From Thauera sp. (lineage in GTDB: Bacteria > Pseudomonadota > Gammaproteobacteria > Burkholderiales > Rhodocyclaceae): a stretch of DNA of 64,000 bases. The stretch spans positions 397,771 through 461,770 of the forward strand of contig JAFLDS010000001.1 of NCBI GenBank assembly GCA_017302295.1, written 5' to 3'. Position 1 is the first letter of the stretch. Each line of letters opens with the position of its first letter. The notes under the pieces were generated by a model. It made no database searches, had not been told where the DNA came from, and saw nothing but the letters and a program-made list of their open reading frames with translations. The position numbers were made by a program, and so were the translations under genes. Shown here piece by piece: positions 9,090 to 47,821 of the stretch.

Positions 9090-9833
9090 GTGGCTACCCG
9101 ACAACGCATCGAGCAGCAGCCCGCCTGGGTTCTGCATACGCTGCCGTGGCGCGAAACGAGCCTCATCGTCGAGGTGCTGTCGCGCGATCACGGCCGGGTT
9201 GCGCTGGTTGCCAAAGGCGCGCGCCGGCCGCTTTCGGTGCTGCGCGGCGTGCTGATGGCTTTCCAGCCGTTGCTGGTGGACTGGTCCGGTGGCGGCGAGG
9301 TCAAGACGCTGGTGCGCGCGGAGTGGCAGGGCGGCCAGCCGCTTCTGACCGGGCGCGCACTGATCTGCGGCTACTACCTCAACGAATTGCTGATCCGCCT
9401 GACCGCGCGAGAGGATGCACACCCGCGACTGTTCGAAGCCTATGCGACCGCTGTCGCTGCGCTGGGCCGGGGCGAGCCCGTTCCTCCGCTGCTACGCCGT
9501 TTCGAACTCGCGCTGCTGCAGGAACTGGGCTATGGGCTGGGACTCGATGCCGAGGGAGACAGCGGCGATCCGATTCGCCCGGAAGGGCAGTATCTTTACG
9601 TCGTGGAGCGCGGCGCGTTGCCGATCGAATCCGTCGGCGGCGACGAGCCGGACATATCGGGCGAGCAGATGGTCGTCAGCGGGCAGGTGTTGCTCGACAT
9701 GGAGGCAGGCGATTTTTCGCGCGCCGAGACGCTGGGACAATCCAAGCTGTTGTTGCGCGTACTCATCAACCATTACCTCGGCGGGCAGCCGCTGCAGTCG
9801 CGCCGGGTCCTGAAGGAGATAGCTGAACTGTGA
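9090..9833 (+). CDS. recO: DNA repair protein RecO
   Basis: RecF-pathway mediator of 247 aa that helps load RecA on SSB-coated DNA. The N-terminal OB fold opens with the typical [21 protein letters not shown] and a helical C-terminal domain follows. Start is GTG at 9090. The stop overlaps the pdxJ start (GTGA). The cysteine zinc motif of some RecO proteins is not obvious, as in many proteobacterial members. Confidence 0.92.
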
Positions 9834-28252: not shown

Positions 28253-28328
28253 GCGGGAATAGCTCAGTTGGTAGAGCGCAACCTTGCCAAGGTTGAGGTC
28301 GCGAGTTCGAGACTCGTTTCCCGCTCCA
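28253..28328 (+). tRNA. tRNA-Gly (GCC), first tandem copy
   Basis: 76-nt tRNA with GCC anticodon and encoded CCA, identical to the copies at 23730 (minus strand) and 28381. The 52-base spacer before the next copy contains a small hairpin (GGATGAA / TTCATCC). Confidence 0.96.
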
Positions 28329-28380
28329 AAGTTTTCGTGCAGGATGAAGTTCGATGTTCATCCGGCCAGCAGTTCAGAAT

Positions 28381-28456
28381 GCGGGAATAGCTCAGTTGGT
28401 AGAGCGCAACCTTGCCAAGGTTGAGGTCGCGAGTTCGAGACTCGTTTCCCGCTCCA
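28381..28456 (+). tRNA. tRNA-Gly (GCC), second tandem copy and ICE insertion target
   Basis: 76-nt tRNA identical to the copy at 28253, including CCA. The integrase gene begins 226 bases downstream in the same direction, the standard layout of ICEclc-type elements inserted at the tRNA-Gly 3' end. The last bases of this gene (about 28439-28456) are therefore the likely attL core. Confidence 0.96.
28439..28456 (+). other. Probable attL core of the ICE
   Basis: The final 18 bases of the second tandem tRNA-Gly. In ICEclc-family elements the att core is an 18-bp segment at the tRNA-Gly 3' end; position before the integrase supports this here. No matching attR occurs between 28457 and 64000, so the other end lies outside the window. 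Confidence 0.6.
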
Positions 28457-28498
28457 AATTTTGATCCACAGACTTCTACTGGGGTCTGTAGGTCATTG

Positions 28499-28524
28499 AA
28501 AAAAGGAGCTTCGGCTCCTTTTTT
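28499..28524. terminator. Hairpin terminator after tRNA-Gly
   Basis: A stem AAAAAAGGAGC / GCTCCTTTTTT with loop TTCG forms a symmetrical bidirectional terminator. It lies just inside the ICE and separates tRNA transcription from the integrase gene. The rest of 28457-28682 shows no gene. Confidence 0.85.
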
Positions 28525-28682
28525 CATTCCAGCGAGTGCCACGGAAATCCACCCACAGCTACCGTTTTTGAGTGACCAAATAAGGCACAAGAATACGGGT
28601 GGGGCGGCTACCGGATAGTTGCTGGGGCTGAGCGGGAACCATGACGAGCATAGGGCCTAAGTCATTACTTAGGAGTCTCGAA

Positions 28683-30626
28683 ATGGCGCTCTCTGATCTG
28701 ACCGTCCGGCAGGCGAAGACCACCGGAAAACGCTACACCCTCTCCGACAACGACTGCCTGGGCCTGATGGTCTCAGCCGCAGGCGGCAAGTCATGGCAAT
28801 TCCGCTACTACTGGCTGGGCAAGCAAAAGCGCCTGTGCCTGGGCGGCTATCCTGCCCTCAGCCTGCGTGAAGCCCGGACCGAGCGAGACAAGGCCCAGGC
28901 CCTGCTTGCCAGGGGGATCGATCCCCAGGTCGAGCGCGACCAGAAACGGCACGCGGCCAAGCTGGCGGGCGAATACACCTTCAAGACCGTCTTCGATGCT
29001 TGGGTCGAGCATCGCCGTAAGGAACTCAAGGAAGGCCGTCAGAGCACGCTTTCCCAGATCCTGCGCATCTTTAACAAAGACGTGCTGCCCACTCTGGGGA
29101 AGATGTCGATCTATGACATTCGCCGCCCTCAGCTTCTGGGCGTCCTGGCGGCGATCGAGAAGCGCAAGGCGTTCACTACTGCGGAAAAGGTCCGCACCTG
29201 GTTCAACCAGATGTTCCGTTATGCCCTGGTCATCGCCGAGGGGCTGGAGGTCAACCCGGCCGCAGACCTGGACGTGGTAGCCGAACCCAAGCCCCCGGTA
29301 GCCCACAACCCCTACTTGCACCTGCCCGAGATGCCCGAGTTCCTCCAGAAGCTCCGGCTCTACAACCCCCGTGGCTGGCAGACCCAGCTTGGCGTCCGGC
29401 TGCTGTTCCTGACCGGGGTGCGCACCGGCGAACTGCGGTTGGCCGAACCCGAACAGTTCGACCTCGACAGGGGCTTGTGGATCATCCCGCCGCAGATCGT
29501 CAAGCAGCTCCAGGATGAAATGCGCAAGGCAGGGAAGCGGCCGCAGGATGTGCCCCCCTATATCGTGCCGCTATCCCTGCAGGCCATCGAGATCGTGCGC
29601 TATCTTCTGGGGGTGATGCGGCCGGCGCAGAGGTACCTGCTGTCACACCGCAGCGAACTCAAGAAGCGCATCAGCGAGAACACCCTCAACAAGGCCGTGC
29701 AGCTCATGGGCTATGAGGGGCGCCTGACCGGCCACGGCATCCGCGGCACCATCTCGACGGCGCTCAACGAGATTGGCTACCCGAAGATTTGGGTGGACGC
29801 GCAGCTTTCCCATTCCGACCCCAATAAGGTGAGTTCGTCCTACAACCACGCCAAGTACGTTGAGCCGCGCCGTCGGATGATGCAGGACTGGGCCGATCGG
29901 CTCGACCTGCTCGAACAGGGCGAAGTGGAAGCCGCGAGCGCGCACCTGACCATCCGTATCGACGGGGTGCCGGCAATGGCAGAAGTGGAGGAAACGATGG
30001 ATGCGACCCTCACGATGGCCGAGCCCACTCCTCCCGGCGTCCCGCCCGTCGTGGCCACGCCTATTGTCGTAACCCCGAGCAGCGGCGGGATCACGTTCCA
30101 GCGGCTGTCTCAGGTGCCGCCGCCTCCGACGCATGCCCCAGAGCCGGAAGTGTCCGCGATCCAGCGCGAGCGCGAGGAAATGCTGACCATCTACGAGTCT
30201 CCAAGCAGCTTGCCGGTCCCGCTGTTCGGCAAGCTGGCTGGAAAGTCCAAGGACCAGATCAACCGCGAACTGAAAGCGGGCAAGTTGCTGTCCATCAGTT
30301 TGGGTAATCGGGGGCAGCGTGTTCCCGATTGGCAACTGGTGCCGCTCAAGCACAAGCTGGCCCAGGTGCTCATGAACCAGTGCCTGCACGCGGATTCGTG
30401 GGATCTGTACCGCATGCTGACCCAGCCGCACCCTGACCTGGGGGACCGCGCGGCCATTGATGCGGTCACGCCGACCAACGTGCCGGCGATCATCCGGGTC
30501 ATCATGGGCGACTACCAGCACCATGCGGATATGCCCGAGGCCATTGCCCCTTACCCCATCCCCGAGGATGTGCGGCAAAGCGTTCGTCGGCTGGTGGATA
30601 GCGCAGTAGTTCTAGACGGAGCATAG
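28683..30626 (+). CDS. ICE tyrosine recombinase/integrase with antitoxin-like C-terminal domain
   Basis: Site-specific recombinase of 647 aa, close in build to IntB13 of ICEclc. The N-terminal DUF4102 arm-binding domain is at about 1-90 and the catalytic domain at about 200-400, with R247 (TGVRTGELR), H351 and R354 (GHGIRG) and nucleophile Y387 (SSYNHAKYVEPRRRMM). A long proline-rich linker follows (about 430-500). Residues about 514-610 align without gaps, about 40% identical by hand count, with the C-terminal half of the Xre-type antitoxin at 57352. The ATG at 28683 is preferred because it gives the family N-terminus MALSDLTVRQAK. It catalyses integration at tRNA-Gly. Confidence 0.94.
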   Translation: MALSDLTVRQAKTTGKRYTLSDNDCLGLMVSAAGGKSWQFRYYWLGKQKRLCLGGYPALSLREARTERDKAQALLARGIDPQVERDQKRHAAKLAGEYTFKTVFDAWVEHRRKELKEGRQSTLSQILRIFNKDVLPTLGKMSIYDIRRPQLLGVLAAIEKRKAFTTAEKVRTWFNQMFRYALVIAEGLEVNPAADLDVVAEPKPPVAHNPYLHLPEMPEFLQKLRLYNPRGWQTQLGVRLLFLTGVRTGELRLAEPEQFDLDRGLWIIPPQIVKQLQDEMRKAGKRPQDVPPYIVPLSLQAIEIVRYLLGVMRPAQRYLLSHRSELKKRISENTLNKAVQLMGYEGRLTGHGIRGTISTALNEIGYPKIWVDAQLSHSDPNKVSSSYNHAKYVEPRRRMMQDWADRLDLLEQGEVEAASAHLTIRIDGVPAMAEVEETMDATLTMAEPTPPGVPPVVATPIVVTPSSGGITFQRLSQVPPPPTHAPEPEVSAIQREREEMLTIYESPSSLPVPLFGKLAGKSKDQINRELKAGKLLSISLGNRGQRVPDWQLVPLKHKLAQVLMNQCLHADSWDLYRMLTQPHPDLGDRAAIDAVTPTNVPAIIRVIMGDYQHHADMPEAIAPYPIPEDVRQSVRRLVDSAVVLDGA

Positions 30627-31750: not shown

Positions 31751-32404
31751 CTATGGGATATTCGAGCAAGCCGCCCTATCCCTGGCAACCAGCATTGCCC
31801 TGTGCTCGAACCGCTCAGAAACAGCATTGGCTCGTCCGTGGGGCCGCTGCAGGTATGTCACGATCTCGTAGGGGCCGTCTGAAAGCGGTCGCATAGTGAT
31901 CCCCCACGCATGGGCACGCTCCATGCGCGATTGCGCCGAGAGCCCCACACCGTAGCCAGCGGTGACCCAAAGCGCCATCATCTCGAACGAAGTCACATGC
32001 TGCACGCTCTGTTGGCTCAACGGAAGGGAAGACAGTCGCTGATCGAGCAGTAGGCATGCCTCCGCCGGCCAGCGAAACACCGGATAGTCCAGAAGCTCGG
32101 CAAGCGTGATCTTCGCCTGGGCAAGTAAGGGGGACCCCAGCGGCATTGCAACGGCCACGTTCTCGACCCAGAGCGGCTGGCTTTTCACGGCTGGAGCACC
32201 AGCGTTCCGAAGCGAGATTCCGGCGTCGTAGCGGCCTTCCTCAAGGCCCGTCATCAGGTCGTCGCCCGAGGTCTCAAAGAACGCGATGGTGACTTCAGGC
32301 TCCTCTGCGCGCTGAAGGGCAAGAAGCGTTATGAGGCAAGAGGATGGCACTCCAGGTGCGATAGCAAGCCTGAAATGGGAAAACTGGCTGGTGGCGTCAT
32401 GCAT
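31751..32404 (-). pseudogene. LysR-type regulator fragment lacking the DNA-binding domain
   Basis: The translated region is a LysR effector-binding domain only (from SHFRLAIAPG to the end, about 217 aa), and pairs along its length with the complete LysR encoded at 32840-33730 (compare VTAGYGVGLSAQS with VGAGYGIGFMTAT). No winged helix-turn-helix is found upstream; the frame remains open but the sequence there is not LysR-like and overlaps the divergent XRE gene. It is therefore probably a 5'-truncated relic. The Met at 32404 is a possible start, and a stand-alone effector-binding protein cannot be ruled out. Confidence 0.6.
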
Positions 32405-32523
32405 GAGGGCCCCCAATAAGCGATCTGTCCAGAAAGGCAAACCAGCGTCGCAGTAAAGAGTGAAGTTTAACGTCGTTATCTTTAACGTGGTTAATTGTGG
32501 CAGATTGTTTGACGCTTCTGCTA

Positions 32524-32817
32524 ATGCAGAAATCAACAATTCAGCCAGGCCGTCCTTCTGGCACATCGACGTATGAATCCGAGTCGGCGTTAGCCTTCGG
32601 ACAGGCCGTGCGCGCTGCGCGCGTCGCTCAAGGAGTCGCGCAAGACGAGTTCGCATCTCGGGCAAGCATTTCGCGTTCTCACATGGGTAAGATCGAGCGT
32701 GGTGAGCACGTGCCCACGCTTCCGCTCATACTGAAAATTTCTACGGCACTCGGAATAAGCGCGGCTGACCTGATGACGGCGACCGAACGCAATCTGCGTG
32801 CCGACACCGATCCCTGA
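32524..32817 (+). CDS. XRE-family helix-turn-helix regulator
   Basis: Small DNA-binding protein of 97 aa. A Cro/C1-type helix-turn-helix is clear at about residues 30-80 (AARVAQGVAQDEFASRASIS, then IERGEHVPTLPLILKISTAL). The ATG at 32524 is chosen; a GTG 27 bases upstream is an alternative. It lies divergent from the LysR fragment and convergent with the complete LysR. Its target is unknown. Confidence 0.85.
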   Translation: MQKSTIQPGRPSGTSTYESESALAFGQAVRAARVAQGVAQDEFASRASISRSHMGKIERGEHVPTLPLILKISTALGISAADLMTATERNLRADTDP

Positions 32818-32839: not shown

Positions 32840-33730
32840 TCAACCGTCCGATGAGTCGCGTAGGCGAACGACAAATCGCTCTACCGAAGCCGATAAATTG
32901 CTGCCGTCGGGCCGAAGCAGGTAGGTCGTGATCACGGCAGAATCCATCGCCAAGGGGCGGATCACCACATCCGGCCGTTGAGAGATGGGAATCTTGGTCG
33001 CCGTCATGAAGCCGATGCCGTAGCCGGCGCCGACCAAGGTGAGCATCATGTCCAGTGAGGATACTTCCTCGACAACATTCAGCTTGTGCTCCAACGTGTT
33101 GAGCAGCCGCTTGAGTTCGCGGCAATAACCCTCGCATACCTGCGGGTCGCACAGGACAAGTGGATGGCCTTGGAGTTCTTGAAGTGGCACCTCCTTGTAG
33201 GTGAGCAATGAGTGCCGAGCTGGCACAGCAATCACCAGCGGGTCGTGCCAGATTGCCTCGGCAGCGATACCGTCGCCGACATCGGCCGTGTGCGCGAACC
33301 CGATCATGAAGTCGCCCGAGCGCAAACCGCGCACTTGCTCTGCCAGAGGCACTTCTGACAAGCGTATTTCGATCTCCGGCTCCTCGGCGCGACAACGAGC
33401 CAGAAATGCCGACAGTCGTGGATCGATAGCTCCATCTGATACTGCGATGCGCAGGCTACCGCGCAAGCCCGATGCCACAGCCTTGGCATTTTCACGAGCC
33501 TGTTCCAGCACAGTGAATAGACGGCGTACATCTTGCAAGAAGACCGCACCCGCCGCCGTCAGAACTGTTCCTCGTCGGTTTCGGTCGAAGAGCACTACGC
33601 CCAACTCGTCCTCAAGTTCCTTGATGGCTCGTGATAGCGGTGGTTGTTCGATATGCAAGCGCTCAGCCGCCCGCGTGAAATGTAGCTCCTCAGCAAGAAC
33701 TACGAAGCAGCGAAGATGGCGCAGCTCCAT
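32840..33730 (-). CDS. LysR-type transcriptional regulator
   Basis: Complete regulator of 296 aa with an N-terminal winged helix-turn-helix (ELRHLRCFVVLAEELHFTRA; PPLSRAIKELEDELG) and a full effector-binding domain. It lacks an adjacent divergent structural gene: about 500 bases of gene-poor sequence lie upstream, so its target is not evident. It is similar to the truncated LysR at 31751, suggesting duplication and decay. Confidence 0.9.
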   Translation of the reverse strand: MELRHLRCFVVLAEELHFTRAAERLHIEQPPLSRAIKELEDELGVVLFDRNRRGTVLTAAGAVFLQDVRRLFTVLEQARENAKAVASGLRGSLRIAVSDGAIDPRLSAFLARCRAEEPEIEIRLSEVPLAEQVRGLRSGDFMIGFAHTADVGDGIAAEAIWHDPLVIAVPARHSLLTYKEVPLQELQGHPLVLCDPQVCEGYCRELKRLLNTLEHKLNVVEEVSSLDMMLTLVGAGYGIGFMTATKIPISQRPDVVIRPLAMDSAVITTYLLRPDGSNLSASVERFVVRLRDSSDG

Positions 33731-34233: not shown

Positions 34234-35448
34234 TTACTGCCGCACTGAACCATGCGGGTCGATGACGTACTTGTATGCAGAACCCGCGTCGAACTCTTTG
34301 TACGCGGCGGGCGCGTCTTCGAGCTTGATGAACTTAGTGTTCATCATCGGCGAAAGGTAAGGCATGCGATCGTTCAGTATCGCCCGCATTAACGCGTGGT
34401 TGTAATTGGCCGTCGGGGATTGACCAGCCGACATTCGCGGCGACTTGATCCAGGCGTTGGACCATTCCAGATCCATATGGCCTTTCTTGGCTTTCGGGTC
34501 TTTCGAGATCGGGTTTGCGCAGTACACACCGACCGTGCTGGTCATTCCGCCGAAGCGGACATATTTGAGCATTGCGTTGGTAACAGCGCTCTCCACGATC
34601 TTGTCAGCCTCCGCGCCAAACCCGCGGCAGTCCACACCAACATAGTCGATGACGCGATCCACCTCCCTGTGCCCGGTAATGCGTTCGAGATGTTCCTCGA
34701 TCGGCACGCCGTCGGAAAGGTTGATGGTTTCCACGCCGTGTGGCTTGAGAAGGTCCAGCCGCTCTTGAATGTAATCGGCAACGATGATGGCGCCTGCACC
34801 CAGAAGTCTGGCGCAGGCGGCACCCGCTCTGCCGACCGGCCCGGCACCGAAGATCAGGATGTTTTCGCCGACGACGTAGGCCGGTGCGGCTGGCCAATCA
34901 GGGCCAGCGAACCCATGGAAAGCTGTGGGTAGTACGTCAGAGAGAAGGGTCAGGTCGCGGATCTTTTCCATGGCGGCATCCTTGTCAGGAAAGCGCAGGA
35001 GATTGAAATCCGCATACGGTACGAAGAGATAATCACCTTGGCCCCCCGTCCAGCCACCGAGGTTGAACCCGTAGGCTCCGCAGTCGATTTCGGGGTTGGT
35101 GTTCTCGCATACATCGGAGCGCATATGCTTGCAGTTGTAGCAACGCCCACAACCCACATTGAAGGGGACGGAAACGATGTCGCCCTTCTTCACGACTTCG
35201 ACGTCTGATCCCACTTCGATCACTTCGCCGGTCATTTCATGGCCCATGGTCATTCCCTTGGGAACAGCAAACGAACCGCGATAAATGTGAAGGTCGCTGC
35301 CACAGATATTTGTGGTAACTATTTTGAGGATAGCGCCGTGGGGTGCACTTTTCCCTTGAGGGGTTATCAGCTCTGGAAATTTGAAGGTGTTGACCTTCAT
35401 TTCCAAGGGCTTCTCGAAAGTCACGATTCGGTTACCGGTCGGAGTCAT
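34234..35448 (-). CDS. fdhA: Formaldehyde dehydrogenase, glutathione-independent
   Basis: Zinc-dependent, NAD-linked dehydrogenase of 404 aa oxidising formaldehyde directly to formate, close to FdhA of Pseudomonas putida. Catalytic zinc ligands are visible (NICGSDLHIYRG; GHEMTGEV), as are the four structural-zinc cysteines (GCGRCYNCKHMRSDVC) and the NAD fold (ILIFGAGPVG). The ATG at 35448 has GAGGTG before it; an upstream extension is not conserved-looking. Transcription probably starts from the regulatory element at 35571-35646, shared with the frmR operon. Confidence 0.94.
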   Translation of the reverse strand: MTPTGNRIVTFEKPLEMKVNTFKFPELITPQGKSAPHGAILKIVTTNICGSDLHIYRGSFAVPKGMTMGHEMTGEVIEVGSDVEVVKKGDIVSVPFNVGCGRCYNCKHMRSDVCENTNPEIDCGAYGFNLGGWTGGQGDYLFVPYADFNLLRFPDKDAAMEKIRDLTLLSDVLPTAFHGFAGPDWPAAPAYVVGENILIFGAGPVGRAGAACARLLGAGAIIVADYIQERLDLLKPHGVETINLSDGVPIEEHLERITGHREVDRVIDYVGVDCRGFGAEADKIVESAVTNAMLKYVRFGGMTSTVGVYCANPISKDPKAKKGHMDLEWSNAWIKSPRMSAGQSPTANYNHALMRAILNDRMPYLSPMMNTKFIKLEDAPAAYKEFDAGSAYKYVIDPHGSVRQ

Positions 35449-35570
35449 TTCGTCACCTCTGTGCGTTAATGTTTCCATCTTCTAAATCGAAGTGGGAAAC
35501 GAGACTTACCGCTGTCAAGAAGAACGATCGTGGTACTGCCTAGCCGTTGGCCGCGTCTCCTTCTGCGGTC

Positions 35571-35646
35571 TTGACAGCATCGGATCAAGCTCAGAAGTGG
35601 TCAAACTGGAATAATCTATGTGCAGATAGACACGATCTATCTACAC
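35571..35646 (-). promoter_or_regulatory. Shared LysR-box promoter element, copy A (fdhA)
   Basis: Read on the minus strand, this segment is about 83% identical (63 of 76 positions by hand) to 43286-43361 upstream of frmR. It contains ATAG-N7-CTAT (AGATAG ... CTATCT) overlapping a second CTAT-N6-ATAG, as expected of LysR-type binding sites, then conserved TTGACC and, 17 bases on, GATGCT, possible -35 and weak -10 boxes. It lies about 120 bases before fdhA and just downstream of a LysR gene. The remainder of 35449-35914 shows no gene. Confidence 0.7.
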
Positions 35647-35914: not shown

Positions 35915-36856
35915 CTATTTCAAGGGGCTTTGGGATGAGTCTGCTTTGGGCTGGAACCGACGATGGATCGATATAACGGATTGAAGAGCGGCGGCCAGTT
36001 CTGGGGTGTGCACCATTTCGAGCAATGCGTGCGATGACGGTGCCTCGAACGCATTTTTCCCAGCAACGAATCCGACATTTGAGTGTGACATTGGTCCACT
36101 GATACCGATTGCGTGGAGATTCGGAATGTGTGCGAGTTGGCCGGCGAGAGATTGCGGAAGAACTGCCGAATATTTTCCTGTCGCCACGTGTGCCGATAGC
36201 ACGTCAATTGAATCAGTGCGAATAGTCTGTGCGGTACATTGCGTCAGTCTATCTTGAATGGATTCAGGTACTGCCGAGTTCAGCAGGCACAGTTGTCTAT
36301 TAAGAACATGGTCCCACGTTGTGCTTCGGGGTTGCTGTGTTCTAGCGGCGTGAAAAAGGAAAATGCGTTCACGGTACAGAAGGTGAGTATCGAAGTCTTC
36401 CCCTGGAATATCCTCCAAATGCATGAGTGCGATATCCAGATTGTTTTCTCGAATCGCCTGCAGCAGGGAAGAAGCGCCGGAGACCAGAATTGATTGTTGA
36501 AGTAAAGGTGTTTTTTCGGCAAGGGCGATGCTTAATGTGGGTGCTACGCCGGCAGTTCCTGGGAGTATCCCTAGCCGGAATTTCCCCTCTATACCCCGCC
36601 GTAGTGCGGAGATTTCTCGCTCCAGTCCTTTGCAGTCGTCATACATCTGCTGAGCCCAAGACAGTACGCGCATTCCTTCAGAAGTGAGCCCGTCGTAGCG
36701 TCGGCCATGACGCACGATCTCGACACCCATGTCTTCCTCCAATTGCTTGATGCCCGCGGAGAGTGTCGGCTGAGAAACATTGCAGCTTTTTGCCGCGTTG
36801 CCAAAATGGCCTTCACGGTGCAAAGCAAGCAAGTATTCAAAGTTTCTTACGATCAT
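35915..36856 (-). CDS. LysR-type regulator, candidate formaldehyde-regulon activator
   Basis: Regulator of 313 aa: the N-terminal helix-turn-helix (NFEYLLALHREGHFGNAAK; QPTLSAGIKQLEE) resembles LysR proteins found beside formate dehydrogenase genes, followed by an effector domain. It lies immediately upstream of fdhA on the same strand, next to one copy of a 76-bp element with LysR-type ATAG-N7-CTAT boxes, so it is the best candidate to control fdhA and, through the second copy, the frm operon. This is inference. The gene is noticeably poorer in G+C than the chromosome, pointing to a separate origin. Confidence 0.88.
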   Translation of the reverse strand: MIVRNFEYLLALHREGHFGNAAKSCNVSQPTLSAGIKQLEEDMGVEIVRHGRRYDGLTSEGMRVLSWAQQMYDDCKGLEREISALRRGIEGKFRLGILPGTAGVAPTLSIALAEKTPLLQQSILVSGASSLLQAIRENNLDIALMHLEDIPGEDFDTHLLYRERIFLFHAARTQQPRSTTWDHVLNRQLCLLNSAVPESIQDRLTQCTAQTIRTDSIDVLSAHVATGKYSAVLPQSLAGQLAHIPNLHAIGISGPMSHSNVGFVAGKNAFEAPSSHALLEMVHTPELAAALQSVISIHRRFQPKADSSQSPLK

Positions 36857-38154: not shown

Positions 38155-40131
38155 ATGTCAACCGGTACGTTCATTCTGCACTCCAGCTATACGCCGGCGG
38201 GGGACCAGCCAGAGGCGATAGCGCGCCTGCTATCGGACATAGAAGAAGGTGCGACACACCAGACGCTGAAGGGTATCACCGGCTCTGGTAAGACCTTTAC
38301 GATGGCCAATGTGATTCATCGTCTGAAGCGGCCCACGTTGATCTTGGCTCCTAACAAGACATTGACCGCGCAGCTTTATGGTGAAATGAAGCACTTCTTT
38401 CCTGAGAATGCTGTCGAGTACTTCGTTTCCTACTACGATTATTTTCAGCCCGAGATTTATATGCCGGGCACCGATCGTTTCATTCCAAAGGACTCGGCCA
38501 TCAACGATCACCTTGAGCGCCTACGCCTGTCCACGACCAAATCCTTGATTGAGCGCCGCGATGTGATCGTCGTCGCTTCGGTGTCTTCAATCTACGGCCT
38601 GGGTGACCCGGAGGCGTACCGAGCGTTGCAGATCGCTCTGTCCCCTGGGGTCAAACTAAACCAGAGAGAGCTGATTCGTCGTTTGGCTCTGCTGCAATAT
38701 GATCGCACTGAGCGCACTCTCAAACGTGCAACGTTTCGCGCTCAAGGTGATGTGATCGATATCTTTCCTGCTGATTCCGAGCATAGGGCAGTTCGGGTGG
38801 AACTGCTGGATGACTCTGTTGCGTCTGTTCAATGGCTAGACCCTGTTACAGGTAAAACGCTTGGGGCAATTGACCATTACTTGGTTTCGCCAAAGACGCT
38901 TTTTGCACCGCCCACGAATAAAATAGATTCCGCGTCCAAGAAGATACTCGCTGATATGGAAGAGCGGGTTGCCGAGCTGAACAGGAATAATCGCTTGGTC
39001 GAGGCAAACAGGCTGTACGAGCGGATCACGCATGACGTGGAGATGATGCGCGAGGTAGGCTATTGTTCGGGCATGGAAAATTATTCCTGCTACTTCAGCG
39101 AACGGGACCCGGCCTCGCCTCCGATCACATTGCTGGATTACCTGCCGAAAGATGGGCTTCTGTTCGTCGATGAATCCCACGTCATGGTGCCACAGATATC
39201 CGCAATGTACCGGGGGGATCAGGCGCGCAAGGAGACGTTGATAGATTACGGGTTCCGCTTGCCTTCGTCTAAGAACAATCGCCCGTTGAACTTTGGTGAA
39301 TTTGAGAAGGTCAAGCCTCAGACCATCTTTGTTTCCGCTACTCCGGGAGACTACGAGCTGAGGGTGTCGAAAGACAGGGTTGTCGAACAAGTTATCAGAC
39401 CAACGGGACTGCTTGATCCCAAGGTTGAGGTGCGGAAAGCGGACGGATACATAGATGACCTGCTTGCCGAAATATCGAAGTGCGTGAAGAAGAAAAATCG
39501 CGTGCTCGTGACTACGCTGACGAAGGTCAGTGCAGAAGAGCTAACGGATTTCTTGACGGACAACGGGATTCGAGCGCGCTACATGCATTCGGACATAAAA
39601 GCGGAGGATCGTGTTGAGATCATCAATGGCCTGCGCGCAGGAGAGTTCGATGTTTTGATTGGGATTAGTCTTTTGCGCGAAGGGCTGGATATTCCAGAGG
39701 CATCATTGGTTGCTATTCTCGATGCAGACCGTGCAGGATTCTTGCGTTCGGCCCATGCTCTCATTCAGATGATAGGTCGAGTCGCTCGGAATGAAAACGG
39801 CAAGGCGATCTTGTACGCCGACGCGGTGACTCCGGCGATGAAACAGGCGATCGATGAAACCAATAGGCGCAGGCAGCTTCAAATTGCCTTTAACGAGGAA
39901 AATGGGATTTCTCCGGCCTCGTCTGTGCGAAAACTAGCAGGAGAAGAGACGAATACGGAGGAGCCCACCGTTCACTCCGAGGCTTTCTGCGAGAATTTGT
40001 CCGACCTTTGCGATCAGATCACTGCCAAGGAACAGCAGCTACTCGAATTTACCGATACCGGTGACGAGCAGCGCGTCGAAGATATTCGTCGTCAGTTGGA
40101 TGGTTTGTACCGGCAATTCATTTACATCTAA
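38155..40131 (+). CDS. uvrB: Excinuclease ABC subunit B, ICE-borne paralogue
   Basis: Helicase-like damage-loading subunit of nucleotide excision repair, 658 aa. Walker A GITGSGKT, the beta-hairpin region FVSYYDYFQPEIYMP, the DEAD-like DESHVM box, helicase motif V/VI (REGLDIPEAS; QMIGRVARNENGKA) and a C-terminal UVR motif are all intact. Length and motifs are those of a functional UvrB. It is carried as cargo and is visibly less G+C-rich than the chromosome; a class-II uvrA lies on the same element but no uvrC does. Start at 38155 is preceded by AGGAG. Confidence 0.95.
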   Translation: MSTGTFILHSSYTPAGDQPEAIARLLSDIEEGATHQTLKGITGSGKTFTMANVIHRLKRPTLILAPNKTLTAQLYGEMKHFFPENAVEYFVSYYDYFQPEIYMPGTDRFIPKDSAINDHLERLRLSTTKSLIERRDVIVVASVSSIYGLGDPEAYRALQIALSPGVKLNQRELIRRLALLQYDRTERTLKRATFRAQGDVIDIFPADSEHRAVRVELLDDSVASVQWLDPVTGKTLGAIDHYLVSPKTLFAPPTNKIDSASKKILADMEERVAELNRNNRLVEANRLYERITHDVEMMREVGYCSGMENYSCYFSERDPASPPITLLDYLPKDGLLFVDESHVMVPQISAMYRGDQARKETLIDYGFRLPSSKNNRPLNFGEFEKVKPQTIFVSATPGDYELRVSKDRVVEQVIRPTGLLDPKVEVRKADGYIDDLLAEISKCVKKKNRVLVTTLTKVSAEELTDFLTDNGIRARYMHSDIKAEDRVEIINGLRAGEFDVLIGISLLREGLDIPEASLVAILDADRAGFLRSAHALIQMIGRVARNENGKAILYADAVTPAMKQAIDETNRRRQLQIAFNEENGISPASSVRKLAGEETNTEEPTVHSEAFCENLSDLCDQITAKEQQLLEFTDTGDEQRVEDIRRQLDGLYRQFIYI

Positions 40132-40281: not shown

Positions 40282-41187
40282 TCAGCGCAAAGCTGGCAAC
40301 GATCCAACGGCGACCAGCATTTCATCAAATACCGCTCGAACCCTTCCCGGAATGGGGCCACGCTGAGGCCGATAGACGTACAACCCCCATGCCGGAGGTT
40401 CTTCGCTCTCCAACACTCGCACGAGCTTCCCGCTGGCAATGTAGGGGGCGGCCATGTAGTCCGCCAGTTGCGCGAACGCGATCCCGGCCAGCGCCGCTCC
40501 CATTTCCATGTCGGCATTGTCGGCGACGAGAGTGGGTGCGGCAGGTGTCCACTGGCGTCCCGCCTTGAAGTGCCAAGGCCAGGGACGGCCGGTATTGATA
40601 TCCAAGGCCACGGTAGCTGGCAGGCTGCTTAGCGCATCGATGTTTTCAGGTACGCCCACTTTCTTGATCAGGCGCGGAGCGGCAACGATCGGAAGTTTCA
40701 TGTCGGCTGCCTTGCGTGCGACGAAGCGGCTATCACGCATGAATCCGACCCTGATTCCGACGTCAATCCCTTCGTCAACCGTATTGCTGATGCGATCGGA
40801 CAGGCGCACATCCAGCGTGATGTCGGGATGACGCGCGGCCACGCGCTCCAGTGCCGGCAGCACCGCTCTGGTGCCCAAGCTGTGCGGTGCGGTGATGCGA
40901 ACCGTACCGGACAGGGATGCCTGCTGGTCGGAGCCAGGCGTTCGCCACAGATCCTCGAACCGCTCCAATGCCGGGCGCACCTGGTCTAACAGCCCTTCGC
41001 CGAAGGCGGTGATGCGCACCTGGCGCGTGCTTCGATGAAACAACACCTCGCCGTAGTGTTGCTCCAGTTGCTGGATGGCACGGGTGACACCTTGCGGAGA
41101 AGTCCCCAGCCGGACGGCTGCATCGCGAAAACTGCTGCTTTCGGCCGCCACCCGAAAGATGCGCAGTAGTTCCATTTCCTTGTTCAT
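40282..41187 (-). CDS. LysR-type regulator divergent from the SnoaL/GNAT/nitrilase operon
   Basis: Complete regulator of 301 aa with an N-terminal helix-turn-helix (ELLRIFRVAAESSSFRDAA; SPQGVTRAIQQLEQHYG) and an effector domain ending LYVYRPQRGPIPGRVR, of the subgroup resembling CrgA/DsdC-like regulators. It is divergent from the operon at 41342 with about 150 bases between, the usual arrangement for control of that operon. Confidence 0.9.
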   Translation of the reverse strand: MNKEMELLRIFRVAAESSSFRDAAVRLGTSPQGVTRAIQQLEQHYGEVLFHRSTRQVRITAFGEGLLDQVRPALERFEDLWRTPGSDQQASLSGTVRITAPHSLGTRAVLPALERVAARHPDITLDVRLSDRISNTVDEGIDVGIRVGFMRDSRFVARKAADMKLPIVAAPRLIKKVGVPENIDALSSLPATVALDINTGRPWPWHFKAGRQWTPAAPTLVADNADMEMGAALAGIAFAQLADYMAAPYIASGKLVRVLESEEPPAWGLYVYRPQRGPIPGRVRAVFDEMLVAVGSLPALR

Positions 41188-41750: not shown

Positions 41751-42359
41751 ATGACCAGCGACGTGCAGGTGCTGGTTCGTCGTGGGCCGGACATTGCCGA
41801 ATGGTTCGACACCGTGGCACATCTGCGGGCGAAGGTCTTCCGCAGCTTTCCATACCTGTACGAGGGCGACATCGAATACGAGAAGCACTACCTTTCCATG
41901 TACGCCCGTTCGGCAGACAGCCTGTTGGTGCTCGTGCTCGCTGATGACGTGGTTGTGGGTGCGTCCACGGGGTTGCCGCTCGGCGATACGGAGCCGGCCT
42001 TCCAGGTACCGTTCGCCGATCGAGGAATCCCGATGGAGGCAGTGTTTTACTGCGGCGAATCAGTCCTGCTCCCAGCCTTTCGGGGCCTTGGCCTGGGCCA
42101 TCGCTTCTTTGACGAACGCGAAGCGCATGCCCGTTCGTTGGGCGGCATGCAGTGGACATCGTTCGCGTCGGTGGATCGAGCAGACGACGATCCCCGGCGT
42201 CCTTCCAACTACCGCAGTAATGATGCCTTCTGGACCCGTCGTGGCTACGTGCGACAGTCGGACATGAAGGTTACGCTGCCCTGGAAGGAGGTGGGTGAGC
42301 CGACCGAAACCGAGCAGACGCTCACGATGTGGCTGCACTCTCTGGAGAACGCGAAGTGA
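41751..42359 (+). CDS. GNAT-family N-acetyltransferase
   Basis: Acetyltransferase-like protein of 202 aa. The acetyl-CoA-binding motif A is seen as LPAFRGLGLGHRFFDERE (R/Q-x-x-G-x-G/A). Substrate unknown. It starts one base after the SnoaL stop and its own stop overlaps the GTG start of the nitrilase gene, so the three are co-translated. GNAT-nitrilase pairs or fusions occur elsewhere (YhcX-type), suggesting a shared amide or amine substrate; inference only. Confidence 0.85.
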   Translation: MTSDVQVLVRRGPDIAEWFDTVAHLRAKVFRSFPYLYEGDIEYEKHYLSMYARSADSLLVLVLADDVVVGASTGLPLGDTEPAFQVPFADRGIPMEAVFYCGESVLLPAFRGLGLGHRFFDEREAHARSLGGMQWTSFASVDRADDDPRRPSNYRSNDAFWTRRGYVRQSDMKVTLPWKEVGEPTETEQTLTMWLHSLENAK

Positions 42360-43246
42360 AAGTAGCAGTTGCGAAATATGCAGTGGGTAAGCCGACGGAC
42401 TTCGAGGCATTTGCTGCGCGGCAGCGACTGGTTCTGGAGGAGGCGCGCCGTGGCGGAGCGGAACTGGCCGTGTTGCCCGAGTATCTATCCCTCGAACTGG
42501 CTGCAACGTTCAAGCCTAGCATCCGCCGTGATTTCAACGCCTCTCTGGCCGCGCTGCAGGCCTTGCAGCCTGCTTGGCTGGCACTGTATGCCGACCTGTC
42601 GCGCGAGTTGTGCATGACCATTCAGGCCGGTACGTTTTTGACCCAGGTTGGTTTGGACCGCTACCGCAACCGAGCTTGGTGGTTTGCGCCTGACGGTACA
42701 CGCGACTACCAGGACAAACTGCAGTTGACGGGGTTCGAGAAGGACACCGGCGTCATCGAAGGTGGCGACGAACTCAAGGTGTTCGACCTGAACGGTGTGC
42801 GTGCCGGCATCGCTGTTTGCTATGACAGTGAGTTTCCATTGCCCGTGCGAGCCCAGAGAGAGGCGGGAGTGCGCCTGCTGCTGGTCCCGAGCTGTACCGA
42901 CACCCAAGCAGGTGCAACCCGGGTCCGTGTGGGCTGCATGGCGCGGGCGCTGGAGAACCGAATGTTCATCGCGCAGGCCGTGACGACCGGAGCTGCTGAC
43001 TGGAGTCCGGCGTTGGACACGAACACTGGCGAGGCCACGATCTATGCACCAATGGATCGTGGATTCCCGGATGATGGCATTCTCGCGACGACTTGCGGCA
43101 CGCAGACATGGGCGATCGGTGATCTTGACGTTGAAGCACTCGAACGAAACCAGGAACAGGCCCAGGTTGCGGTCGATCGTGACTGGGACGGCCAGATGTT
43201 GCCTGCACTGCGGAAGGCTCGGTATTCGGGTCGTCAGGTCGCCTAG
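42356..43246 (+). CDS. Carbon-nitrogen hydrolase (nitrilase superfamily)
   Basis: Amidase/nitrilase-fold enzyme of 296 aa. The catalytic Glu-Lys-Cys triad is readable: E in VLPEYLSLE, K in YQDKLQLTGFE and C in AVCYDSEFP. GTG at 42356 overlaps the GNAT stop (GTGA) and gives KVAVAKYAVGK, the normal first beta strand. The substrate, probably an amide or N-carbamoyl compound, cannot be assigned. Last gene of the operon under the divergent LysR. Confidence 0.87.
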   Translation: MKVAVAKYAVGKPTDFEAFAARQRLVLEEARRGGAELAVLPEYLSLELAATFKPSIRRDFNASLAALQALQPAWLALYADLSRELCMTIQAGTFLTQVGLDRYRNRAWWFAPDGTRDYQDKLQLTGFEKDTGVIEGGDELKVFDLNGVRAGIAVCYDSEFPLPVRAQREAGVRLLLVPSCTDTQAGATRVRVGCMARALENRMFIAQAVTTGAADWSPALDTNTGEATIYAPMDRGFPDDGILATTCGTQTWAIGDLDVEALERNQEQAQVAVDRDWDGQMLPALRKARYSGRQVA

Positions 43247-43285
43247 CCGGTCTCATCTTGTTAGCTTCAGTTCGATGAGTCGGCT

Positions 43286-43361
43286 TAGATAGGCCACGTC
43301 TATCTGCGCATAGATTTTTCCAGTTTGACCAGTTTTGAACTTGCCCCGATGCTGTCGATAC
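43286..43361 (+). promoter_or_regulatory. Shared LysR-box promoter element, copy B (frmR operon)
   Basis: Plus-strand copy of the element found upstream of fdhA (about 83% identity over 76 bases). AGATAG-N7-CTATCT spans 43287-43305 and overlaps CTAT-N6-ATAG; TTGACC and GATGCT follow at the same spacing as in copy A. It lies about 170 bases before frmR, upstream of a separate FrmR operator, so the operon may have two layers of control. Confidence 0.7.
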
Positions 43362-43450: not shown

Positions 43451-43497
43451 TTGTGGCGAAGTTCGGCCGCATATACTATGGGGGAGTATTGTATAAT
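43451..43497 (+). promoter_or_regulatory. frmR promoter with FrmR-type operator
   Basis: TTGTGG (43451-43456) and TACTAT (43474-43479) form a -35/-10 pair with 17-base spacing; a second -10-like TATAAT is at 43492-43497. The sequence ATACTATGGGGGAGTATT (43473-43490) has AT-rich inverted arms around a G-tract, the pattern of FrmR/CsoR-family operators, and covers the -10. Repression relieved by formaldehyde is expected from known FrmR systems. Confidence 0.7.
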
Positions 43498-43528: not shown

Positions 43529-43804
43529 ATGCCACACAGCCCGGAAGAAAAGAAGCAAGCACTGACGCGCATCAGGCGCATCAAAGGTCAGGTAGCGACT
43601 CTTGAGCAAGCGCTTGATGCAGGTGCGGAATGTCCTGCAATTCTTCAGCAGCTTGCGGCCGTTCGTGGGGCAGTCAACGGATTGATGGCAACGGTTCTGG
43701 AGAGCTATCTGCGGGAAGAGTTTCCCAGTAGCGAAATCAGGAGCGATTCGCAGAACAAGTCCATTGACGAGACCATCTCTATCGTCCGCTCCTATCTGCG
43801 GTAG
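43529..43804 (+). CDS. frmR: Formaldehyde-responsive repressor FrmR
   Basis: All-helical repressor of 91 aa in the CsoR/RcnR family. It begins MPHSPEEKKQALTRIRRIKG, the FrmR form in which the N-terminal proline and the cysteine (here in AECPAILQQL, residue about 36) are crosslinked by formaldehyde, releasing DNA. Start at 43529 has AGAGAGG before it; the upstream extension is not family-like. It heads the frm operon and has a matching operator at its promoter. Confidence 0.94.
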   Translation: MPHSPEEKKQALTRIRRIKGQVATLEQALDAGAECPAILQQLAAVRGAVNGLMATVLESYLREEFPSSEIRSDSQNKSIDETISIVRSYLR

Positions 43805-43839: not shown

Positions 43840-44973
<1,134 letters not shown>

Positions 44974-46990: not shown

Positions 46991-47821
46991 ATGGAACGCA
47001 TCGAACATCACGCCAGCTTTGATGGTTGGCAGGACGTTTATCAGCATGAATCGACGACGCTCGGTTGCACGATGAAGGTCGGCGTCTATCTGCCTCCGCA
47101 GGCGCAGCACGGCAAAGTGCCGGTGCTGTACTGGCTTTCGGGCCTGACCTGCACCGAGCAGAACTTCATCACCAAGTCCGCCGTCCAGCGCTACGCGGCC
47201 GAACATGGCATTGCCGTCGTCGCGCCCGATAGCAGCGCTCGCGGCGAAGGCGTTGCCGACGATCCTGCCTATGACCTCGGACAGGGCGCGGGGTTCTACG
47301 TCAATGCCACACAGGAACCCTGGGCTGCGAATCATCGGATGTACGACTACGTCGTGCAGGAACTGCCGGCGCTGATCGAGGCCCACTTTCCCGTGACAGC
47401 GGAGCGGAGCATCAGCGGCCATTCCATGGGAGGACACGGTGCTCTGGTCATCGCCCTGCGCAACCCGGGCCGTTATCGAAGCGTCTCGGCCTTCTCGCCC
47501 ATCGTCGCCCCCACCCAGGTTCCCTGGGGGCACAAGGCCTTCGAGGCGTACCTGGGCAGCGATCGGGAGGTGTGGAAACAGTACGACACCGTGGAGCTGA
47601 TTCGCACCGTGCAGGAGCGTTTGCCGTTGCTGGTGGACCAGGGCTTGGGCGACGAGTTCCTGGAGAGCCAGCTTCAGCCCGACCTGCTGCGCAAGGCCTG
47701 CGACGAGACGGGGCACCCGCTCACGTTGAATCTGCGCCCAGGCTACGACCACAGCTACTACTTCATTGCCAGTTTCATTGGCGAGCATATGGCACACCAC
47801 GCATCGGCGCTGAAACGCTGA
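46991..47821 (+). CDS. fghA: S-formylglutathione hydrolase
   Basis: Serine esterase of 276 aa (esterase D family) that releases formate and glutathione from S-formylglutathione. The nucleophile elbow GHSMGGHGAL and the oxyanion segment LSGLTCTEQNFI are intact, and the late His lies in GYDHSYYFIASFI. Start at 46991 has TAGGAGAA. It completes the glutathione-dependent formaldehyde pathway with frmA. Confidence 0.95.
   Translation: MERIEHHASFDGWQDVYQHESTTLGCTMKVGVYLPPQAQHGKVPVLYWLSGLTCTEQNFITKSAVQRYAAEHGIAVVAPDSSARGEGVADDPAYDLGQGAGFYVNATQEPWAANHRMYDYVVQELPALIEAHFPVTAERSISGHSMGGHGALVIALRNPGRYRSVSAFSPIVAPTQVPWGHKAFEAYLGSDREVWKQYDTVELIRTVQERLPLLVDQGLGDEFLESQLQPDLLRKACDETGHPLTLNLRPGYDHSYYFIASFIGEHMAHHASALKR

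Follow-up and report, generated by a model that had tools for sequence, protein, structure and literature searches.

A repeated putative operator-promoter before two sets of formaldehyde genes on a mobile element, and the LysR-type protein that probably uses it

Why should two sets of formaldehyde genes, 7.7 kb apart and on opposite strands, be preceded by the same 76 bases? The question is raised by 64,000 nucleotides of a Thauera sp. genome ("the window"), in which one copy of a repeat faces fdhA and the other faces the run frmR-frmA-VOC-DUF3422-fghA-oxidoreductase. A sequence-only reading of the window had proposed that a LysR-type protein encoded nearby (here LysR-B) controls both pathways through this element and responds to a signal related to formaldehyde or formate. 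The ORF is present where that reading placed it, on the minus strand, and our comparisons support its interpretation of one LysR operator on both formaldehyde systems: the repeat is probably the operator-promoter of a two-target formaldehyde regulon run by LysR-B. To that interpretation we add kinship with the regulator FdsR, an OxyR-like form of the motif, a probable FrmR operator, a similar site before RuMP genes of a second phylum, and a cysteine, Cys75, that is a candidate for the sensor. Table 1 lists the features.

Table 1. Features of the window discussed in the text.
Feature	Position	Strand	Remarks
Two tRNA-Gly	28253-28328, 28381-28456		adjoin integrase ORF
Integrase ORF	28641-30626
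LysR-A	32840-33730
fdhA	34234-35478	-	glutathione-independent formaldehyde dehydrogenase; TIGR02819 1.8e-127, below model cut-off; relatives annotated with this product
Element copy 1	35571-35646	-	faces fdhA; core matches copy 2 exactly
Copy 1 half-sites	ATAG 35640-35637; CTAT 35629-35626; ATAG 35619-35616; CAGT 35608-35605	-
Copy 1 hexamers	TTGACC 35604-35599; GATGCT 35581-35576	-
LysR-B	35915-36856	-	ORF, 313 aa; LysR/OxyR-type by NCBIfam, below every curated cut-off
uvrB, extra copy	38155-40131	+
LysR-C	40282-41187	-
Carbon-nitrogen hydrolase ORF	42329-43246		stop 37 bp before copy 2 start
Element copy 2	43283-43358	+	faces frmR
Copy 2 half-sites	ATAG 43289-43292; CTAT 43300-43303; ATAG 43310-43313; CAGT 43321-43324	+
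Copy 2 hexamers	TTGACC 43325-43330; GATGCT 43348-43353	+
Probable FrmR operator	43473-43489	+	ATAC-TATGGGGGA-GTAT, between copy 2 and frmR
frmR	43529-43804	+	formaldehyde-responsive repressor; NF008464 1.2e-46, above cut-off
frmA	43864-44973	+	S-(hydroxymethyl)glutathione dehydrogenase; TIGR02818 9.1e-219, above cut-off
fghA	46991-47821	+	S-formylglutathione hydrolase; TIGR02821 2.9e-125, above cut-off

Families were assigned for ten proteins of the region, and the other names come from an annotated Aeromonas caviae relative. The true start of fdhA is probably 35448 (MTPTGNRIV), judging by likeness to relatives, and fghA is presumed, from gene order and strand, to belong to the frmR operon; a peroxidase gene is also present in the region. 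The stretch from lysR-B to fdhA is 97.0% identical to Aeromonas caviae plasmid p1, with the order of neighbours conserved, and genomes with the formaldehyde module range from Pseudomonas to Gluconacetobacter. A similar assembly has been described in variable region VR4 of ICEPni1, an ICEclc-like element of Pseudomonas nitroreducens HBP-1 with FrmA, FrmB and FdhA (PMC7466150). Compared by description, the two are alike in having formaldehyde genes on a mobile element together with a dye-decolorizing peroxidase and a nitrilase; the word LysR is absent from the main text of that paper (PMC7466150). Two further observations concern the left part of our element. The tRNA-Gly pair and the integrase ORF (28253-30626) are likely an attachment end of the mobile element. 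An ORF at 31751-32665 (minus) has a LysR-type substrate-binding domain, with a separate helix-turn-helix ORF adjoining at 32497-32817, and is possibly half of a split LysR; its Aeromonas counterpart is annotated as a substrate-binding domain protein.

The two copies of the repeat agree at 62 of 76 positions. The sequence-only reading had counted about 63, with the second copy at 43286-43361; the repeat is real, but the register was not, since that placement gives 12 of 76 identities and a 3-base shift restores 62. The runner-up 76-mers in the window reach 37 (plus strand) and 35 (minus strand). The window has two places that match a 34-base core at every specified base, and the core is absent from 100 of 100 dinucleotide shuffles even when 3 mismatches are allowed. 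When a 101-base query was run by BLAST over all 53 contigs of the genome (4.1 Mb), no third copy was found at E ≤ 0.001. Chance origin of the repeat is rejected by the shuffles of the core and by the ranking of 76-mers in the window. The component motifs read earlier are also there: AGATAG-N7-CTATCT occurs exactly twice in the window (35624-35642 and 43287-43305), and TTGACC-N17-GATGCT is read directly in both copies. Relaxed to 3 mismatches, the former motif is weakly informative, with 14 matches versus 6.7 expected and at least 14 in 3 of 100 shuffles. Both copies are intergenic, as had been claimed, though copy 2 is hardly far from coding sequence, lying 37 bp past the stop of the carbon-nitrogen hydrolase ORF.

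Base by base, both copies read ATAG-N7-CTAT-N6-ATAG-N7-CAGT, with TTGACC-N17-GATGCT immediately after. If we take these hexamers as the predicted promoter, the start sites would lie near 35569 (copy 1) and 43360 (copy 2), and the centre of the first dyad would fall near -64 and that of the second near -43. Activated LysR promoters typically have a recognition dyad of the form T-N11-A about 65 bp before the start and a second, activation site near the -35; in both copies the dyads and hexamers are spaced as such a layout would require. In the mechanism that we propose, a LysR-B tetramer would bind the ATAG-N7-CTAT dyad and the poorer ATAG-N7-CAGT dyad, and the adjacent promoter should need an activator, since its -35 (TTGACC) is good but its -10 (GATGCT) is poor. 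C1 stress, from formaldehyde or from the formate derived from it, would then lead LysR-B to activate fdhA and frmR-frmA-...-fghA together, and FrmR, on an operator of its own downstream of the LysR promoter, would put a second lock on the frm operon.

How closely do the element and the gene for LysR-B keep company? We searched 20 genomes that carry LysR-B with the pattern ATAG-N7-CTAT-N6-ATAG-N8-AGTTTG, allowing up to 2 mismatches. The exact pattern is found in all 20: 19 have two copies each and the other has three, which makes 41; the same genomes have one further match elsewhere, at 2 mismatches, and the reversed control pattern has 2 matches. Where near-copies of the module were read locus by locus, the element stands between LysR-B and FdhA in 20 of 20 that have the two genes, and all 14 that include frmR have it upstream of that gene (nine near-copy loci without frmR, L002, L004, L008-L010, L012, L015, L019 and L021, stand outside the latter count); the remaining copies among the 41 are placed by the pattern alone. 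Because these 20 genomes contain near-copies of a single mobile module, and two of the genomes (G001 and G014) share a strain number, the 20/20 co-occurrence shows consistency, not independence.

Among 398 Pseudomonadota genomes sampled, LysR-B (E ≤ 1e-60) is found in one, the window's own. A search of all 398 with up to 1 mismatch finds the exact pattern in none of the 397 genomes without LysR-B, and a 1-mismatch match in each of two other genomes. In the host genome, a genome-wide pattern search places the motif only before these formaldehyde genes, and viral contigs have 0 matches for a stricter pattern. We reject the possibility of a generic repeat occurring at unrelated loci: the genome has no third copy, and the pattern tracks LysR-B through 20 genomes that carry it and in exact form is absent from the 397 that do not.

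Beyond the near-copies, the element can be followed into diverged lineages. A second cluster in Burkholderia aenigmatica has an 86-87% identical LysR-B head to head with frmR, with the element kept upstream of frmR and no fdhA match at the locus. In Shinella, Sphingobium and Sphingomonas, 53-63% relatives of LysR-B stand before fdhA, and the intervening DNA has the motif with 0-1 mismatches; four alphaproteobacterial loci (L036-L039) also include frmR, which there is without the element, and the two Kozakia loci have no clear copy. In a set of 10 genomes or records searched with up to 2 mismatches allowed, six have the pattern, and two Kozakia plasmids and two acidobacterial genomes have none. 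In Acidobacteriota, the genes after 44-52% relatives of LysR-B are hxlB-hxlA, which serve formaldehyde fixation in the RuMP pathway. Both families are confirmed in L022, L023 and L028, hxlB in L026, and both by tblastn in L075-L077; for L024, L025, L027, L029 and L030 the assignment is putative, from the raw DNA where the gene starts. With up to 2 mismatches allowed, two of nine acidobacterial loci (L022 and L024) have the whole pattern and the other seven miss it.

We also scored these regions with matrices. With leave-one-out matrices and 500 shuffles that keep base content only, 17 of 19 regions have a site whose score is reached by 0 of the shuffles, and the two Kozakia regions are weak (5 and 2 of 500). 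In this procedure near relatives train each other, and we therefore also trained matrices across phyla, against a null of 1000 first-order Markov samples. The acidobacterial matrix, built from six training sites chosen from eleven for one common spacer length, was run over both strands of the window (about 128,000 places), and it scores copy 1 at 21.7, copy 2 at 20.9, and the third best place at 5.4. On eight proteobacterial regions, the same matrix gives 0 of 1000 in four, 1 to 6 in three, and fails in one (204). The proteobacterial matrix, applied to eleven acidobacterial regions, gives 0 of 1000 in six and fails in five (16, 23, 21, 457 and 550); by eye, those five have a spacer one base shorter, and CTAT is changed in four of them. 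Left out of both matrix tests were L075 (the same DNA as L028) and L074 (the same locus as L023), and out of the leave-one-out test L020 (a near-copy of L036); L032, a 34% partial match, is excluded throughout, and L033, L034, L046 and L048 repeat other loci.

Among 199 genomes of the Shinella family, LysR-B is found only in the known Shinella, and acidobacterial relatives are found in 4 of 150 genomes of the Edaphobacter family. These sparse counts, together with the one in 398 above, mean that the LysR-B family is rare and that its independent lineages are few.

What kind of LysR protein is LysR-B? A tree built from 37 proteins groups the 17 rows of the LysR-B family into a single clade (100/99), which is joined with 14 FdsR-type rows at 100/99; the FdsR side has 99/98 for 13 rows, and 81/39 once the host FdsR is included. 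LysR-B falls outside the FdsR clade, as a separate sister clade. OxyR comes next, on a long branch flagged by the program, and LysR-A and LysR-C are not joined with LysR-B and FdsR. The nearest characterised kin of LysR-B is FdsR, the formate-responsive regulator of formate dehydrogenase, described in Cupriavidus necator as formate-inducible (4.5-fold, Km 130 uM; PMC7057948). Among plasmid records, the closest relatives beyond the family itself are two LysR genes at about 34% identity; that of Sinorhizobium meliloti is followed by genes annotated as formate dehydrogenase, and after that of Methylobacterium the next reading frame looks, by eye, like fdsG. An fdsR gene has this same position. 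The model of LysR-B has an N-terminal helix-turn-helix, a linker helix and a two-lobed C-terminal domain (mean pLDDT 81.7, pTM 0.65). The 50 matches listed in a fold search are OxyR and other LysR-type regulators, OxyR first, with no finer assignment; the nearest solved structure is that of OxyR, by sequence (4.8e-15) and by fold (2.6e-21).

FdsR of C. necator and its relatives in Sinorhizobium and Methylobacterium resemble LysR-B in having a C1 metabolism target, there an fdsGBA-type formate dehydrogenase operon, and in the operator form ATAG-N7-CTAT, which is common to FdsR-type promoters and our element. Downstream of lysR, the exact dyad occurs in 11 of 25 FdsR-type loci versus 0.05 expected, and at up to 1 mismatch in 14 of 25 versus 0.84 expected; all 14 fall among the 17 loci where fdsG follows. 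This set was fetched as 25 loci from 31 matching genomes, and 9 of the 14 dyad loci come from two genera. The two systems differ in their neighbours, which for LysR-B are fdhA, frmR or hxlB-hxlA and not fds formate dehydrogenase genes. Taken together, the co-occurrence of gene and element (20/20 versus 0/397), the diverged relatives and the FdsR kinship support putative control of both pathways by LysR-B through the element.

Counting against our reading, the host has other candidates: an OxyR, an FdsR-like LysR on the chromosome, and LysR-A and LysR-C on the element. Any of these might be proposed in place of LysR-B. That the true regulator is LysR-A, LysR-C or the chromosomal FdsR-like protein we consider unlikely. 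All are present in the host, the FdsR-like protein is related to LysR-B (29.8% identical), and LysR-C joins, at 100/99, the LysRs beside chromosomal adhC-fghA, which is the position of GfnR. GfnR (PA3630) is a known formaldehyde-linked protein, described as the LysR activator of adhC-PA3628 in Pseudomonas aeruginosa, and resembles the system proposed here as a LysR regulator of glutathione-dependent formaldehyde removal (PMC10308882, PMC10926688), but it is LysR-C, not LysR-B, that this group takes in. Moreover, the recognition helix of LysR-B is like those of FdsR and OxyR, and neither LysR-A nor LysR-C has one of this type; the fetched alphaproteobacterial loci that bear the element (L020, L036-L038; loci only) have no match to LysR-A or LysR-C at E ≤ 1e-20; the chromosomal adhC loci L067-L069 fall outside the sole pattern positions in their genomes; and the host fdsR-fds locus has no exact ATAG-N7-CTAT.

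Could LysR-B act on the element mainly as a repressor, or as a dual regulator released by its ligand? C. necator FdsR is reportedly a dual regulator. The sites near -64 and -43 and the poor -10 are nevertheless the arrangement usual for an activated LysR promoter, and we think this reading improbable.

The host OxyR is a further candidate, on the view that it binds the element in place of LysR-B and that formaldehyde stress is read as oxidative stress. OxyR is described as binding four ATAG elements at intervals of about 10 bp (PMC3953959), a form that the element resembles, and its helix-turn-helix is similar to that of LysR-B; the OxyR-like gene of the host (L106) has a similar recognition helix. 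Yet the motif tracks the LysR-B gene, its only sites in the host are the two formaldehyde ones, and its second dyad is degenerate. The OxyR consensus has an inter-dyad spacer of 7, and the element has 6. We give the host OxyR very little credence here. As a known system, OxyR has different targets and about 23% identity to LysR-B, in which the residue aligned with the peroxidatic C199 is Ser (against the C199D structure); near the resolving C208 lies Cys207, which is not kept in the LysR-B family.

No more plausible is that the fdhA promoter was recently duplicated and moved upstream of frmR, so that copy 2 would regulate nothing and FrmR alone would control frmR: the four alphaproteobacterial frmR loci without the element speak for it, two of them with an FrmR-type site, but the Burkholderia frmR locus retains the ATAG/CTAT half-sites of copy 2 and its TTCCAGTTTGACC stretch in upstream DNA that has otherwise diverged more, and the half-site letters are invariant across all 41 exact copies while the spacers vary.

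If LysR-B activates both gene sets, what is left for FrmR to do? The published FrmR type I site has a GC-rich tract of about 9 bp with ATAC/GTAT flanks, upstream of frmR (PMC5146963), and 43473-43489 matches this description. It is the sole ATAC-N9-GTAT in the window; since 10 of 100 shuffles also hold one, its place and its GC tract carry the argument. Of 14 related frmR loci, 12 retain the exact form; it is missing in L003 and also in L017, which has a changed end. The frmRA(B) systems controlled by FrmR (PMC5146963) are matched here in frmR and its site, and differ in that a LysR-type element and a putative promoter have been added upstream. The FrmR operator should give the frm operon a second input. 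Because it is present on the frm side alone, the frm operon is expected to be both activated through the upstream LysR element and repressed by FrmR, whereas only the LysR input would act on fdhA. In two alphaproteobacterial loci, ATAC-N9-GTAT occurs upstream of both frmR and frmA (9482-9522 and 5262-5278 in L037, 8594-8610 and 5279-5295 in L038), and no LysR element is present there.

As for the signal, residue 75 is Cys in 17 of 17 rows of the LysR-B family and in 0 of 25 FdsR-type proteins, many of which have Ala or Ser there; it is also Cys in 19 full-length loci that were read separately (L017 is in both sets). Cys25 and Cys190 are common to LysR-B and FdsR. In the model, Cys75 lies within the linker helix (residues 59-89; low confidence at 81-89), and is a candidate for the formaldehyde-sensing residue. 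A bolder idea, which is conceivable but which we doubt, is that LysR-B belongs to a class of proteins, spread across phyla and sharing an origin with FdsR, that sense formaldehyde directly. Formaldehyde would modify or cross-link the invariant Cys75 and so reset the tetramer on an operator of the OxyR/FdsR type, one switch serving three chemically unrelated routes of detoxification, those of fdhA, frmRA-fghA and hxlB-hxlA.

A candidate regulator and operator are now available for glutathione-independent formaldehyde oxidation; fdhAB of Pseudomonas putida has been reported as constitutively expressed (PMC10308882). In a search of literature titles and opening abstracts, with subscription journals mostly outside its scope, the matches listed include no LysR regulator of the fdhA-frm set or of a lysR-hxlB pair. 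If the proposal is true, thiol-dependent, thiol-independent and RuMP removal of formaldehyde would come under one regulator family in two phyla, and it would be explained how a mobile formaldehyde module can carry its regulation with it. Since LysR-B and FdsR differ at residue 75, a shift from formate to formaldehyde in a LysR protein becomes directly testable, and LysR-B with its element could serve as parts for a formaldehyde biosensor.

Some minor observations remain. LysR-C is about 28-30% identical to the Pseudomonas LysRs in the GfnR position and is possibly a second formaldehyde-linked LysR. The proteobacterial LysR-B clade is nested inside the acidobacterial one (97/94 in a 12-row set), which hints at transfer between phyla, with a rooting that relies on FdsR. 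One genome (G012, contig C81) has an extra frm cluster (L066) with a 97% identical FrmA and a shortened frmR, at which a genome-wide search does not find the element pattern. The Kozakia baliensis plasmid pKB14400_2 (L040) has fdhA and a LysR-B relative near annotated hxlA and hxlB, which brings oxidation and RuMP genes together, and one neighbour gene there is uvrA. An extra uvrB accompanies the formaldehyde genes here, as uvrB does in the Shinella, Sphingobium and Sphingomonas clusters, and may help to repair formaldehyde damage.
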